Source: Halococcus salsus
Lineage (GTDB): Archaea > Halobacteriota > Halobacteria > Halobacteriales > Halococcaceae
Assembly (NCBI RefSeq): GCF_009900715.1
Contig: NZ_JAAAJC010000010.1
Location: 1 to 63,984, forward strand
Direction: 5' to 3'
Length of the DNA: 63,984 nt
Shown here in pieces: positions 9,508-50,455 of this stretch. Positions within the stretch are counted from its first letter, which is position 1. Every line of letters starts with the position of its first letter. The notes beneath the pieces were generated by a model, which saw only the letters and a program-made list of their open reading frames with translations, did not search any database and was not told the origin of the DNA. Made by a program: the position numbers and the translations under genes.

Positions 9508-11103
9508 ATGAGTACCAGCACCTCCGACGCCTGCGACAACACCGCCTATTCGCATAAGATCACCGTTCGTGGATACCTCCAAACCCACGGCGAGGTCGCC
9601 TCCAAGGACGATCTCCGCGCCGGCACCGACGTGCCGGCGTGGTACATCACTAACATCGCCTCCCAAGCCCCCTTCTACACTTCCTTGAACCACAACAACG
9701 AGTACGTCGCCAGCAAGCACATCGTCGGCCACCGATCCACTCACGACGGGTTCTGGCGGCCCGAGGTGGATGACGGCGTCGCCGTCTTCCACCGCAAGGA
9801 AGACGCCAAGCCGACGCTCAAACACCTCGCGTTCCGCCGTCCATCCGGGCTGACCGCATCCGAAGCAAACGACCTTCTCGGTCGTCGCTCCTACCGCCCA
9901 CTCCAGAAGCTCGCTGACCAACAGGAAGTACACGCCACGGAATGGCTAGACACCACCGTCTACACCCACAGCTGGCCGTCCCGCAGGGACGACCAGCTGG
10001 CTCAGCGTGAAACCGACCAGCCAGCCGATGTCACTCACGACGATCCTGCTGACGACGGCTACCTCTACCGTGACGAACTCGTTGCAACCTTCCTCTCGGT
10101 CGCTGTCTCGGAACTTCAGTCAATCTCTCCCGAACGAGCTGCCGCACTCGTCCTGCGGCAGTTCGAGGGCGACTCCTTCGACGCCCTCGAACGCCGTCTT
10201 CAGCGCAATCACTCATTTCGAGAGGCTCTCGACTACACCGAGCCAGAGGACGTCCCGGATGGGACGTCGCTCTGGCGGGCCTTCGATGAACTTCATCCCG
10301 ATGAACTCCGAGACTGCCTCCAGTCGATGTGCGGCGAGTTGCTTGCCGATCACGAACATGGCGGTGAGTTCGTCGTGATCGATGGAACGCACATCGCGGC
10401 GTGGGCGAATACGCGTGATGAGATCGAAAATGGCGAAGTTGAAGGTGCGAGCTGGGGGAAACACGAAGGATCGTTCTACGGGTACAAGGTGTTTCTCGTG
10501 GTGGATGCGGCAACGGAGCTGCCGGTCGCCATCACGATGGAGACCGGCAAGAGGAACGACAGTGCGGCGTTCGAACCGCTCGTTGAGGAGTTCAACGAGC
10601 GGTACGACACTGACGATCTCCAGGCAGCCCTCGCCGATGCCGGCTTTGACAGTCAGGATAACCGCGACTTCTGTCAGGATCAGCTCGATTGTCCGTTGCT
10701 GACGGCGATCAATCCTCGCCGATCGTCGCCGTTAGCAACGATCAAGGACGAAATCAAGGAACTGTTCAAGGAACACGGCGAGGAGGTCGACAGTCCCTAC
10801 GACGCTCTGGAGCGGCTGCCACAGAAGCAACTCTCGGAGTACGGTGTTTCCGTCGGAAACGTCGAGGAGACGTACATTTTTCAGGCAATCAAAGAACGGA
10901 TGCATCGACACCTGCGGGCAGGTGTCGAGCGCGTATTCTCGCGTCTGAAGTCCTTTACCGGCCTTGATCGCGTCCGCGCACGCAAGAAGAACAACGTTGA
11001 GACTCACGTCGTTCTCTCGGCAGTAGCGCTGGTTGCAGCGTCTCTCACTGCACAACGGCAGAACAAACCAGGGTTGATACGGTCACCGAGTCGGCTCATC
11101 TGA
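9508..11103 (+). CDS. DDE transposase of a haloarchaeal IS element
   Basis: A 531-residue protein. A DDE triad is visible: D292 in FVVIDGTHIAAW, D377 in ALADAGFDSQD, E474 in AGVERVFSRLKSFTGLDRVR. The N-terminal 190 residues contain a winged-helix-like region (VRGYLQTHGEVASKDDL, SGLTASEANDLLGRRSYRPLQKLA) likely to bind the element ends. The catalytic part resembles IS4/IS1182-like transposases, but I cannot fix the family. The ORF is intact. Terminal inverted repeats could not be located with confidence. A strong hairpin with T-run follows at 11127-11170. Confidence 0.85.
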   Translation: MSTSTSDACDNTAYSHKITVRGYLQTHGEVASKDDLRAGTDVPAWYITNIASQAPFYTSLNHNNEYVASKHIVGHRSTHDGFWRPEVDDGVAVFHRKEDAKPTLKHLAFRRPSGLTASEANDLLGRRSYRPLQKLADQQEVHATEWLDTTVYTHSWPSRRDDQLAQRETDQPADVTHDDPADDGYLYRDELVATFLSVAVSELQSISPERAAALVLRQFEGDSFDALERRLQRNHSFREALDYTEPEDVPDGTSLWRAFDELHPDELRDCLQSMCGELLADHEHGGEFVVIDGTHIAAWANTRDEIENGEVEGASWGKHEGSFYGYKVFLVVDAATELPVAITMETGKRNDSAAFEPLVEEFNERYDTDDLQAALADAGFDSQDNRDFCQDQLDCPLLTAINPRRSSPLATIKDEIKELFKEHGEEVDSPYDALERLPQKQLSEYGVSVGNVEETYIFQAIKERMHRHLRAGVERVFSRLKSFTGLDRVRARKKNNVETHVVLSAVALVAASLTAQRQNKPGLIRSPSRLI

Positions 11104-30399: not shown

Positions 30400-30627
30400 A
30401 GTTCCGAGTACGCGAACTATAGACTAAACGGTTCCGGTGAATCCGAGTTGGGATAGGGTGAGAAATTCTGAGTTATCTCGTCATCACATTTGAGTCTCAC
30501 CCTACATTGGAAGAGCCAGCTAGGATGAGTCTCCCTGAGAAAGGGGGTAGCGACTGAATATCATCCGTAGTTCCTCAATCACACTTCTACTATGATAAAA
30601 ACCTCGCAGGCTTACTGGAATCCATAT

Positions 30628-30684
30628 ACAATACCCTTACTACTTAGGCAAAAGGTCGATATACTCTCAAAGCCAATATTGTGC
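30628..30684 (+). promoter_or_regulatory. Conserved leader/promoter of TbsP copy 1
   Basis: These 57 bases match the 57 bases before the second tbsP (39328-39384) at roughly two thirds of positions, including ACCCT...TTAG.CAAAA and CGATA..CTC. The CGATATAC piece lies about 24 bases before the ATG, suitable for box A. Confidence 0.5.
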
Positions 30685-31515
30685 ATGGTCTTACCTCAAA
30701 CCACCGTAGACACGTCCAAATCAACTCTCTTCGATGCAATTCTCGAAAATGAGTCGAACGATCTTCTTAGCACTGGGTTTGATGAGGCTCTTACAGAGGC
30801 GCTCATCACCGTACTCGGAGAAATAGATGATCCACCGAACGTCCACCTTCTCACAACCGAATCCGTATTGAAATGGGTTCGGGACGACTTCGTCTTAGCA
30901 AGCGAGGCTGCAGACCTCATTAAAAGTGAGACGCTCTCGATGCGGACTGACGAAAGCGTATCCGAGAATCGATTGGTCATCACCGAAGAATCCGTTGTCT
31001 CACTCGTTACCGCCGGTGAACACACCGCTGGACTCCCCACCGACGACGAGGAGTTCGTCGGAGCAGTAAATGAGAAATGGAACGAACGCTGGAATCAGGC
31101 CGAGGAATTCTCGCTCCGAACACCGCCACGCTCACGGGTGGAAGCCTCTCTCAACGATGAATTTGGCTCGGAGGTCGAGGAAGACTTCCGAGCGATGCTG
31201 GACACAGTTGAGAGTACTCGCAGCAATGAGGGACTCGATGCAGTGGATGTCAGTCTCCTCGTGGCCGCCAAACACGAACTCCTGCTCTACGATGTTTCGA
31301 AGTGGGGAGAGGATATTGGCCTCGCAAGTAAAGCAACCTTCTCACGAGCGAAAACGAACCTCGAAGAGAGCGTACTCATCGAAACCGAAAAAGTCCCGAT
31401 CGACGTCGGCCGACCGCGTCTACGGTTGCTTCTCGGCGAAGACGAACTGCGGGATGCCGATATTGACGAACTCCCCAGTGTCGCTCAACGGCTCGCTTCG
31501 ATGGTTCCAGCATAA
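30685..31515 (+). CDS. tbsP: TbsP-family transcriptional regulator (DUF5821), copy 1
   Basis: A 276-residue protein matching the haloarchaeal TbsP family throughout. The N-terminal sensor-like half contains STGFDEALTEALITVLGEID, VHLLTTESVLKWVRDDFVLA and ESVVSLVTAGEHTAGLPTDD. The C-terminal half is the wHTH: VSLLVAAKHELLLYDVSKWG, LASKATFSRAKTNLEESVLI, EKVPIDVGRPRLRLLLG. In Haloferax TbsP works with TrmB on glycolysis/gluconeogenesis genes. The start at 30685 matches the second copy, which is also 276 residues long. An Lrp gene follows on the same strand 156 bases later. Confidence 0.85.
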   Translation: MVLPQTTVDTSKSTLFDAILENESNDLLSTGFDEALTEALITVLGEIDDPPNVHLLTTESVLKWVRDDFVLASEAADLIKSETLSMRTDESVSENRLVITEESVVSLVTAGEHTAGLPTDDEEFVGAVNEKWNERWNQAEEFSLRTPPRSRVEASLNDEFGSEVEEDFRAMLDTVESTRSNEGLDAVDVSLLVAAKHELLLYDVSKWGEDIGLASKATFSRAKTNLEESVLIETEKVPIDVGRPRLRLLLGEDELRDADIDELPSVAQRLASMVPA

Positions 31516-39384: not shown

Positions 39385-40215
39385 ATGGTTCTTAGCCAAC
39401 CGGTCAGAGATGTAACCCGGTCGAGTCTCCTCAATGCAATCCTTGAGGATGAGTCACGCGACCTCGTTTGCACTGGGTTTGATGAAGCTCTCGTTGAGGC
39501 ACTTATCACTGTACTGAGAGACAGAGATGGTCCGCCGACCGTCCATCTGCTGACAACTGAATCGGTATTGAGATGGGCTCGAGACGATTTTGACTTAGCG
39601 AGCGAGGCTGCAGACCTCGTTGAGAGTGGGACACTCTCGATTAAGACGGGGGAAGGCGCACTCGAGAACCAATTGGTCATCTCTGAAGGGTCAGTTGTCT
39701 CGCTCGTTACCGCTAGTGAGCACTCGGTAGGACTCCCGACTGAGCATGAGGAATTCGTCGGTGCAGTGAATGAGAAATGGAACGACCGTTGGAACCGGGC
39801 CGAAGAGTTCTCACTCCGAACCCCAGGACGCTCACGGATCGAAGAGTCCCTCAATGAGGAATTCGGCTCGGAGGTCGAATCGGATTTTCGAGCAATGCTT
39901 GACGCTGTCGAGGGCACTCGTAGCGATGAGAATCTTGACGTGGTAGACATCTGCCTTCTAGTGGCTGCCAAGCACGAACTCCTCCTCTACGATATCTCGA
40001 ACTGGGGCGAGGAGGTCGGCGTTGCGAGCAAGGCAACCTTCTCGCGAGGGAAGAACAATCTCGAAGAGAGCGGCCTAATCGAGACCGAAAAGGTCCCGAT
40101 CGACGTTGGTCGGCCGCGTCTTCGACTCCTGCTCAGTGAGGATGAACTACAGGACGCTGATATCGACGTTCTCCCAGGTGTCGCTCAAGGATTACTCTTA
40201 GAGGGTCTGGCATAA
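39385..40215 (+). CDS. tbsP: TbsP-family transcriptional regulator (DUF5821), copy 2
   Basis: A 276-residue paralogue of the protein at 30685, equal in length. Shared blocks: CTGFDEALVEALITVLRDRD, VHLLTTESVLRWARDDFDLA, GSVVSLVTASEHSVGLPTEH, and the C-terminal wHTH VASKATFSRGKNNLEESGLI and EKVPIDVGRPRLRLLLSEDE. Divergence is spread evenly, so both copies appear to be under selection. It follows lrp copy 2 by about 300 bases. It could act on the same carbon-metabolism promoters as TrmB/TbsP or on the genes of this island. Confidence 0.85.
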   Translation: MVLSQPVRDVTRSSLLNAILEDESRDLVCTGFDEALVEALITVLRDRDGPPTVHLLTTESVLRWARDDFDLASEAADLVESGTLSIKTGEGALENQLVISEGSVVSLVTASEHSVGLPTEHEEFVGAVNEKWNDRWNRAEEFSLRTPGRSRIEESLNEEFGSEVESDFRAMLDAVEGTRSDENLDVVDICLLVAAKHELLLYDISNWGEEVGVASKATFSRGKNNLEESGLIETEKVPIDVGRPRLRLLLSEDELQDADIDVLPGVAQGLLLEGLA

Positions 40216-40510
40216 TTCTCTTCGTTGGTTTGATGAAGCCTAACCAGTACTTTCCTGAGCTACAGTGAAAATGCGGGGTGGCTCGAAATAATTCTTACCT
40301 GACGATCGAACCGAAATCGGGTTCGATTGTTTGGTAAGATGCTAAGCGCTAACTGAATCCCAGCAGAGTTGTTAACGGTGTGTAGAACTCGCGAGAAGCA
40401 TCGGCAACGTGTAGTGAGCGGTAGGCAAGTATTTGCGTTGTTGCTCCCGATTCATTCTGGAGAACGAAACCAAACATCGAATGTGCTGTGCTATTTGGTA
40501 ACAAGAATTA

Positions 40511-40635
40511 AGGGGTCCTAACCCGTACTGAGGCATGCAGGCGTATTGCCTGTACTACGTGCGGCCAACACGGGGACACCGTGCGTAGGAGTATACGTGA
40601 ACCACGGGCCGGGGGTTAAACCGGCCGGCCCATTT
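40511..40635 (+). ncRNA. Candidate structured RNA with multi-branch fold
   Basis: Complementary arms fit one nested fold: CCCGT (40522-40526) with ACGGG (40604-40608) enclosing TGCAGGC/GCCTGTA (40536-40554) and CTACG/CGTAG (40555-40588), the last enclosing CACGG-GGACA-CCGTG. A GC-rich hairpin GGCCGG/CCGGCC (40607-40626) and ATTTTCT follow, like a terminator. No ORF explains it. I recognise no known RNA family. Strand is assigned from the trailing T-run. Confidence 0.4.
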
Positions 40636-40858
40636 TCTATCCCGACACCCTTTTAACGGATGTCTTCGGAAGCAGGGCAAAGGTTGGCGAGCGAGGCTGC
40701 GAAAGCACTTTGAAGGTCAGCTCAGTGTGACTGTTTTTGTAGGGCTCTACAGTGGCCAAATCGTTCGAGAAAGTTCTGATCTGTCCCAAAACGGATGAGA
40801 GATTGACCAGTAAGATACGTTAATCACTTTTCTGAGAAGCGTGGTAGGAAAGACCGCA

Positions 40859-40987
40859 AGAACGGTCACAAAGCGGGACAGTCGGCGGTGCTGATGTGCC
40901 CTGTGCTCCCGGTGGCGACGGAAGCAAGCGACCCACACCATATCGACGAAACCATTGTTCCGGACTGTCTCGCGTGAAAACCGTTCT
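40859..40987 (-). ncRNA. 129-bp element with covarying terminal stem, copy 1
   Basis: The ends form a long interrupted stem: AGAACGG (40859-40865) with CCGTTCT (40981-40987), and GCGGGACAGTC (40873-40883) with GACTGTCTCGC (40963-40973). A copy of equal length lies at 47541-47669 with 13 differences. Two of these are paired changes that keep base pairing (C-G to G-C, T-A to G-C) and others swap G-C, G-U and A-U. This favours an RNA or hairpin under selection over a plain repeat. Alternatives are a MITE with long inverted repeats or a decayed coding sequence. Strand is tentative; a GTTTAAAC box A candidate lies at 41026-41033. Confidence 0.5.
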
Positions 40988-46533: not shown

Positions 46534-47221
46534 CTACCCCTCAACGGGCGCCTCGGCCGAACCCTGGATGTATCGCTCGCGATTGTCATCGATCGCCCTG
46601 ACCGTCGTCCGGGTGATACCGGCTCGCCGGGCGAGCTCGCGTTTGCTCGTTCCTTTGTCGAGCTCATCGATGATGACGACCGCTGTATCATAGTCCTCGT
46701 TCGGAGTGAGATAGCCCTCTGAACCGACGTCGAACCCGAACGGTGGTCGACCGTGCCACTTCCCCTGAGCGCGGCTCGCCGTGATTCCCTCGCGAATGTT
46801 GTCGCGTTTGATCTCGGCCTCGAGCTCGGCGAACGTCGCGGCGACTGTAGAGGAACGCGCGCGTGTAGTGATCCGGATTCTTCGGATCGAGGTCAATCCC
46901 CATATCGAGGACGTGGAGCGCGACTTTGTTCGTATCGACGATTCGATCCACGGCGTCGGCGAAATCCCGAACCGATCGTGAGAGCCGCGACACCGCTGAG
47001 GTGACGACTCGCTCGACCTCCCAGTTCTCGACTGCCTCGATCATCTCGGCGTATCCATCGCGGTCGGTGTTGGTCCCCGTCTACTTGTCGGAATATACAT
47101 CGATCATGGCGGGTTCAATCCCGAGTTGGTCGGTCGCGTAGTCGCTGGTCTGTCGCCGTTGGCGAGCAAGGCTTTGCTCGCTGGTGCTGACCCGACAGTA
47201 GAGAGCGGTTTTCCCGGACAT
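46534..47221 (-). pseudogene. Serine recombinase / resolvase, broken by a stop and a frameshift
   Basis: It starts MSGKTALYCRVSTSEQSLAR (catalytic Ser in RVSTSEQ), and reaches a TAG at 47081-47083 after VYSDK. The same frame resumes with TGTNTDRDGYAEMIEAVENW and VVTSAVSRLSRSVRDFADAV. Near 46855 the frame shifts into VAATFAELEAEIKRDNIREG, with GKWHGRPPFGF and a C-terminal HTH (GTSKRELARRAGITRTTVRA). Two independent lesions show decay. It was a resolvase/invertase-type site-specific recombinase, common in haloarchaeal mobile DNA. Confidence 0.88.
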
Positions 47222-47905
47222 GGTGGGGTGCTATGTATCAGAATTTGACCCGTATGTCATGCCATCTGAAGTCGGCTAGGTAGGATTCGTCATGCACGGC
47301 CACCCGCGAAATTTAGCCCAACGGACCAAATCTCACAGCGAACCGTGCATTAGGAATCCTACCTGGCCATCATCAGATAGCATATTTGCTTGAGAAAATG
47401 TGGCGACGGCCGTTTCGACACTAGATTCAGCTTCTTAAGAGATAACTACTAATACCAATTCCAACCATGAAGTCTACCGTCACCGAGACCACTGAAATGC
47501 GTTAATCATATATCTACAACCCTGACAGAAAGAACTGCGGAGAAGGGTCACAAAGCGAGACAGGCGGCGGTGCTGATATGCTCTGTACTCCCGGTGGCGA
47601 CGGAAGTAAGCGACCCACACCAGATCGACGAAACCATTGTTCCGTCCTGTCTCGTGTGATAACCCTTCTTTGTCGTAACTTCTGAACGAGAGCACTCTGA
47701 ATTACCCACTATATCCATCCAAAAGCATGTAGTCGTTAGTAGAAGCAGTCGCAAGGTGAGAAAGTCAGCAATAACAACAGGATCTGGGTTCTGGAGACAT
47801 CAAAAACGTCGCACGGATAAATGGCTACTAATCTATTGACGGAAAGTTCGAAGTAAAGAGGTGCCCACCGAGAACCCTATACGAAAGTAGCGGAAATGTA
47901 GTAAG
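47222..47905. other. Gene-free region containing the second 129-bp element
   Basis: A sequence before 47280 and the structured element at 47541-47669 are the only features. An inverted repeat pair (GTAGGATT near 47280 and AATCCTAC near 47354) encloses CACGG/CCGTG arms and could be a further small hairpin. Confidence 0.45.
47541..47669 (-). ncRNA. 129-bp element with covarying terminal stem, copy 2
   Basis: Same length as copy 1 (40859-40987), with 13 differences by my count. The outer arms AGAAGGG / CCCTTCT and inner arms GCGAGACAGG / CCTGTCTCGT pair like those of copy 1 although both sides changed. The loop keeps GGCGGTGCTGAT, CCCGGTGGCGACGGAAG and GACGAAACCATTGTTCCG. Similarity continues weakly about 45 bases on the low-coordinate side (CGTTAATCA) but not on the other side. 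Confidence 0.5.
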
Positions 47906-50009: not shown

Positions 50010-50455
50010 TCATACTATACTGGCGTGAGCGAATTCGGCGACGATCGCCTCAATGCTGAGTTTGTTGAGATATAGCTCAAAAGACTGATAGTTGTCCCAC
50101 CCGCCGATCCCCATTACAACACGGGGATTCATCCGCTCGCAAACGAGACACGAATGGGCGAAGTGTCGTCGAAGGTCGTGAGAGGACACCTTCCGTGAAT
50201 CGTCGTTGCCTGTACGATCAACTGCTCTCGTCGCGGCGGATTTCATGATTCGCTGCATCATCCCGGGGGCCATATCGATCACGAGATCTGACTGAGCGAT
50301 GCTCTCGGTCCGTAATAGCGGTGCAGGTGTAGATCGTGTTCGACCTCACGCGGGAGGTAGGCGTTTTCGGTTTCCCGCCACCCCCTGTGGTGACTTTGCC
50401 CTGCGGCACGCGGAGGAAGTAGTAATCCCCGTCCTCGACTAGTTCGCGCCTTGGA
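50010..50455 (-). pseudogene. Tyrosine recombinase (integrase) remnant
   Basis: The last 90 codons are open (50010-50282): MMQRIMKSAATRAVDRTG, then VSSHDLRRHFAHSCLVCERM (HxLRR box) and VVMGIGGWDNYQSFELYLNK, where the catalytic Tyr is Y in LYLNK. Upstream pieces in two other frames, YYFLRVPQGKVTTGGGGKPK and AYLPREVEHDLH, belong to the preceding part of the catalytic domain. The N-terminal core-binding domain is missing. It is a dead phage/plasmid-type integrase. Confidence 0.8.

Follow-up and report, generated by a model that had tools for sequence, protein, structure and literature searches.

Two copies of a 129-nt element and their surroundings

The analysed window (63,984 nt of Halococcus salsus contig NZ_JAAAJC010000010.1) harbored two copies of a 129-nt element on the + strand, both recognized by R1, a covariance model built from seven copies, and by R2, its refined version. 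The features of the two copies are listed below.

40805..40858, + strand: block upstream of copy 1, common to copy 2, by homology
40859..40987, + strand: RNA element copy 1, 129 nt (R1 E 4.9e-32, R2 E 1.4e-30)
40859..40885, + strand: copy 1, P1 5' arm, from covariation and the pair list (P1a 40859-40865, P1b 40866-40869, AAA bulge 40870-40872, P1c 40873-40885)
40886..40892, + strand: copy 1, conserved internal loop, 5' side, CGGTGCT (family CGNNGCY), kept from Halococcus to Haladaptataceae
40893..40898, + strand: copy 1, P2 5' strand GATGTG, with partner CATATC at 40939-40944; double changes in 6/6 pairs
40906..40924, + strand: copy 1, P3 hairpin with the 7-nt loop GTGGCGA (family NUNGCNN), from covariation; 2 pairs significant in the tree-aware test
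40945..40959, + strand: copy 1, conserved internal loop, 3' side, GACGAAACCATTGTT; CGAAA nearly invariant across the family
40960..40987, + strand: copy 1, P1 3' arm, from covariation and the pair list (P1c 40960-40973 with 1 bulged base, P1b 40974-40977, AAA bulge 40978-40980, P1a 40981-40987)
47487..47540, + strand: block upstream of copy 2, common to copy 1, by homology
47541..47669, + strand: RNA element copy 2, 129 nt (R1 E 5e-30, R2 E 4.6e-28)
47541..47567, + strand: copy 2, P1 5' arm, laid out as in copy 1
47642..47669, + strand: copy 2, P1 3' arm

From the outside inwards, P1 consists of P1a (7 bp), P1b (4 bp, TCAC/GTGA), and P1c (13 bp, one bulge); an AAA bulge in the 3' arm separates P1a from P1b, and another in the 5' arm separates P1b from P1c. 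An earlier sequence-only reading had described two equal-length copies with 13 differences and paired ends; both copies are 129 nt long and differ by exactly 13 substitutions without any gap, and the pairing of the ends holds, but P1 is longer than that reading described. Its account of the changes within the stem was accurate: two P1 pairs were altered on both arms with pairing kept (C5-G125 to G5-C125 and T24-A106 to G24-C106), two were altered on one arm (G15-C115 to G-U and G18-U112 to A-U), and one was lost between the copies (C25-G105 to C-U). The homology of the copies (82.6% over 184 nt) covered 54 nt upstream and 0 nt downstream, stopping exactly at the element 3' end, and the shared 54-nt upstream block is probably a promoter or 5' region.

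Several other features lie around the copies. A resolvase-like gene split into overlapping frames (window 46534-47044) was detected just upstream of copy 2, and a short phage-integrase-family remnant (50010-50282) downstream of it. A 116-bp segment upstream of copy 2 (47264-47379) shared 86% identity with a plasmid of Halocatena salina that yielded no RNA copy, and the window and Halococcus dombrowskii had a transposase region in common with 98% identity. TbsP-like regulators adjoin elements at three places in the host genome (window 39385-40215, a Pfam match, and 30592-31515; L007 6385-7212; L009 5388-6215), probably reflecting a shared segmental duplication.

Covariation and the conserved core

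The sequence-only reading favored a conserved RNA and proposed collecting homologues, building a covariance model and running R-scape for covariation, including paired substitutions in further copies. Homologue collection with the covariance model yielded seven copies in the host genome, about 40 in the genus and relatives in other families. Among 34 same-genus sequences, double changes occurred in 34 of the 35 proposed pairs; paired cells reached 93.5%, versus 72% in shuffles and at most 50% in slid structures, and the covariation score was 0.577 versus at most 0.151 in slid controls. Because this 34-copy alignment had been fitted to the covariance model, the core was realigned across families with MAFFT from sequence alone and the count repeated; 25 of 26 pairs then showed double changes, and the score was 0.567 versus at most 0.180 for slid structures. 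Alignment A7 was used, and the MAFFT alignment A8 was left out due to the misalignment of P3.

Significance was assessed with a home-made, tree-aware, R-scape-like null, in which the tree was kept and substitutions were redistributed branch by branch. In the two-set version on named pairs, 11/35 same-genus and 7/26 cross-family pairs were significant, the 11 being spread over P1a, P1b, P1c, P2, and P3 with at least two per helix, while only 0.09% (same-genus) and 0.07% (cross-family) of the remaining column pairs reached p<0.001. The unrestricted test over all column pairs, of low resolution with only 40 nulls, gave one and two significant pairs, all within the structure. Covariation thus backs all five helices. 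In addition, helix cells contained 115 G-U versus 36 A-C combinations (~3:1), indicating that the + strand is the RNA.

The end sequences drifted freely with their pairing kept, and the inner core was more conserved than the ends. Conservation was strongest in two single-stranded parts, the internal loop (CGNNGCY facing NCGAAAN..NNGUYCC) and the P3 loop with UNGC, each flanked by covarying helices; RNAs that bind a protein or ligand are built in this way. With covariation in further copies and a fold conserved across families, the case for a conserved RNA is far stronger than two copies allow.

Genomic distribution and the flanks of the copies

In the host genome, blastn detected five further matches (E 1e-51 to 2e-4), and R1 recovered seven copies, two each in C10, C11, and C8 and one in C7, the six other copies having R1 E values of 1e-31 to 4e-8. 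R2 revealed about 40 copies in 8 of 10 genomes of Halococcus, with around 20 in one of them; a match in a ninth genome was judged chance and not counted, as were, by eye, weak model matches in GC-rich sequence (L068, L069, L070, L171, L172, and L021). Copies were dispersed, some on plasmids, and occupied the same placement (orthologous sites) between Halococcus species. Tandem arrays comprised five copies in L042 (6898-7740), at least four in L043 (3347-4187), and two each in L007 and L009. A plasmid of Halococcus dombrowskii carried two copies, one of which reads identical to a copy in the same-genus genome G001. Some Halococcus copies were truncated (L052 16289-16408) or degenerate, suggesting that not all are functional.

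The truncated L052 copy is a second, 5'-degraded copy, 6.3 kb away from the intact one (9929-10057) and in the same orientation, and its 3' part and 31 nt downstream are kept with 90% identity; in the list of reading frames at this one locus, no integrase was seen between the two. Moreover, homology blocks often begin or end at the element 3' end or within the element (window 40454-40987 with L007 5336-5869; L007 5818-7922 with L009 4820-6931; L043 4144-4661 with L052). These breaks are most simply explained by recombination between the repeated RNA genes, and the element 3' end may also be used for integration. An attC-like recombination site, raised by the same breaks, was rejected because the core is conserved, copies are orthologous, and the flanks look promoter-like.

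Beyond the genus, R2 matched 26 of 28 genomes of Haladaptataceae (Halorussus, Haladaptatus, and Halomicrococcus), with between one and a few copies per genome, the majority located at either of two fixed sites on the chromosome. At the first, 17 loci adjoin a gene on the opposite strand, named TrkA-N from its sequence; at the second, 8 loci lie near tRNA-His, which largely accounts for the proximity of copies to tRNAs, scattered elsewhere. The outer stem was not conserved in Haladaptataceae. The core model R3 extended the range to four genomes of genus g67, which belongs to a third family, and to G027, which has two copies, and the phylum sample contained nothing significant beyond these groups. 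For searches that covered more than 40 genomes, filtering was stricter and missed weak matches, and the actual distribution may thus extend further. The element was not found in viral contigs searched with two core patterns or in phage records searched with blastn, and bacterial matches of a genome-wide pattern (Limibaculum, Eggerthellaceae, Demequina, and Bacillota) do not fit the model.

These distributions bear on the main alternative of the sequence-only reading, a MITE with long inverted repeats, and on non-autonomous mobile DNA in general, where the pairing would be a by-product of terminal inverted repeats. The element resembles a MITE as a short dispersed repeat with inverted ends, present in many copies partly on plasmids, and the homology blocks that stop exactly at its 3' end or inside it fit such a reading. 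However, no target duplication was present at either window copy, no autonomous relative sharing the ends was seen in the flanks examined, the ends keep their pairing rather than their sequence around a better conserved core, and the covariation is tree-aware. The fixed orthologous sites, in the 17 and 8 Haladaptataceae loci and between Halococcus species, mostly refute mobile DNA, which we regard as very improbable.

For the flanks, a promoter-like CATAACAAAG box and a 5' hairpin accompanied the core in most Haladaptataceae copies, and the end was often T-rich. The 5' hairpin (GCGCCCG/CGGGCGC) was paired in 22-23 of 23 sequences, and a single-stranded CACGAAAGTTCTCGT stretch was nearly invariant in this family. 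A clear TATA box was confined to a few Halococcus copies, the window copies having only weak candidates. One Halococcus copy subgroup conserved an extra upstream hairpin region (GGGGAGA..GGTTGGG..CCCTCAACC..TCTCCCC) together with a CRAAAGNNCTACG box ~100 nt before the element (upstream of L043 4187, L044 9700, L045 10046, L046 3045, L048 9932, L052 10057, L053 9911, and L079 1501). As the promoter-like box and extra hairpins differ between Halococcus and Haladaptataceae, the RNA seems modular, with a variable 5' arm and a fixed core.

Downstream, window copy 1 is followed by a same-strand SnoaL-like gene 70 nt away and copy 2 by a same-strand small open reading frame 237 nt away, an arrangement consistent with a cis-acting mRNA leader (a riboswitch or autoregulatory element) controlling the downstream gene. 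However, the genes downstream were unrelated from locus to locus, with no recurring same-strand function, and the downstream gene was convergent at four annotated Haladaptataceae plasmid loci and at the H. dombrowskii plasmid locus, both of which argue against a leader. The tandem arrays, which reach five copies, and the T-rich end after the RNA in Haladaptataceae also speak against it, making a leader improbable. No gene co-occurring with the RNA was found, and HalOD1-domain neighbors, suggested by the plasmid loci, were absent near the Halococcus copies. Promoter-like boxes, T-rich ends, and convergent neighbors suggest instead that the element may form an independent transcription unit.

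Relation to known RNAs and proposed role

Searches against Rfam 15, at the gathering threshold and at E<=5, matched only nearby tRNAs and no family at the elements, in agreement with the first impression that no known family has such a sequence. The RNA family is previously unnamed and without known relative, and orphan structured RNAs are familiar as a class of discovery. SRP RNA and RNase P RNA are likewise structured archaeal RNAs from stand-alone genes, but their Rfam models matched none of the copies tested; a resemblance to the SRP Alu domain or the hammerhead was compared by eye, and the topology does not fit.

Similarity in overall shape also raised a Y-RNA-like partner of the Ro60 (TROVE) protein, as Y RNA/YrlA is a small RNA whose two ends pair into a bulged stem and which can be multi-copy, and the element, itself present in several copies, has conserved loops and a closing stem with small bulges. 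The host genome lacks a TROVE gene, which refutes a Ro60 partnership as a general explanation; the gene was missing from the RNA carriers G000, G003, G008, G027, and G196, and TROVE occurred in eight genomes where the RNA was not found versus one where it was present. Given also the absence of an Rfam match and an outer stem that differs between families, not being conserved in Haladaptataceae, this partnership has almost no probability.

The chief rival is an antisense-type sRNA that pairs with mRNAs via its conserved unpaired core, its structure serving mainly stability. Conserved single-stranded stretches, such as the one in Haladaptataceae, are consistent with this, as is the abundance of intergenic sRNAs in haloarchaea (PMC5892119, PMC7002113), exemplified by Haloferax volcanii sRNA132 (PMC6560208) and by the itsRNAs of a halite community, which include the unassigned 69-nt Halococcus STRG.48671.1 (PMC7002113). 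Those sRNAs resemble the element in being intergenic, of similar size, and probably independent units, whereas they are described mainly by expression and the element is a family whose fold is conserved across haloarchaeal families. Helices and spacing kept across families go beyond the needs of a seed, and we consider mRNA pairing unlikely.

The preferred reading is that the copies are probably small stand-alone RNA genes on the + strand, encoding a trans-acting structured RNA that is a putative protein scaffold or ligand. The transcript would be one long irregular hairpin composed of P1, an asymmetric internal loop, P2, and a short P3 with the UNGC loop, in which a lineage-specific 5' arm would precede the fixed core. 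The conserved single-stranded core would be the working part, and the two-bulge closing stem P1 may additionally protect the RNA ends. Such an RNA would most likely work in trans by scaffolding a protein or serving as its ligand, although protein binding itself is a guess. The multiplication to around 20 copies in Halococcus, partly in tandem, would make sense if dosage or copy variants were important.

To our knowledge, archaea-specific structured RNAs are few. With chances that we place somewhat short of even, the element may represent a new archaeal structural RNA class, an RNP present in almost all Haladaptataceae and amplified to a tandem multi-copy family in Halococcus. Some haloarchaea are genetically tractable; the fixed sites in Haladaptataceae offer clear deletion targets, and the copy number in Halococcus provides a natural experiment. 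This strongly supported family is a directly testable entry to a new RNA's function.
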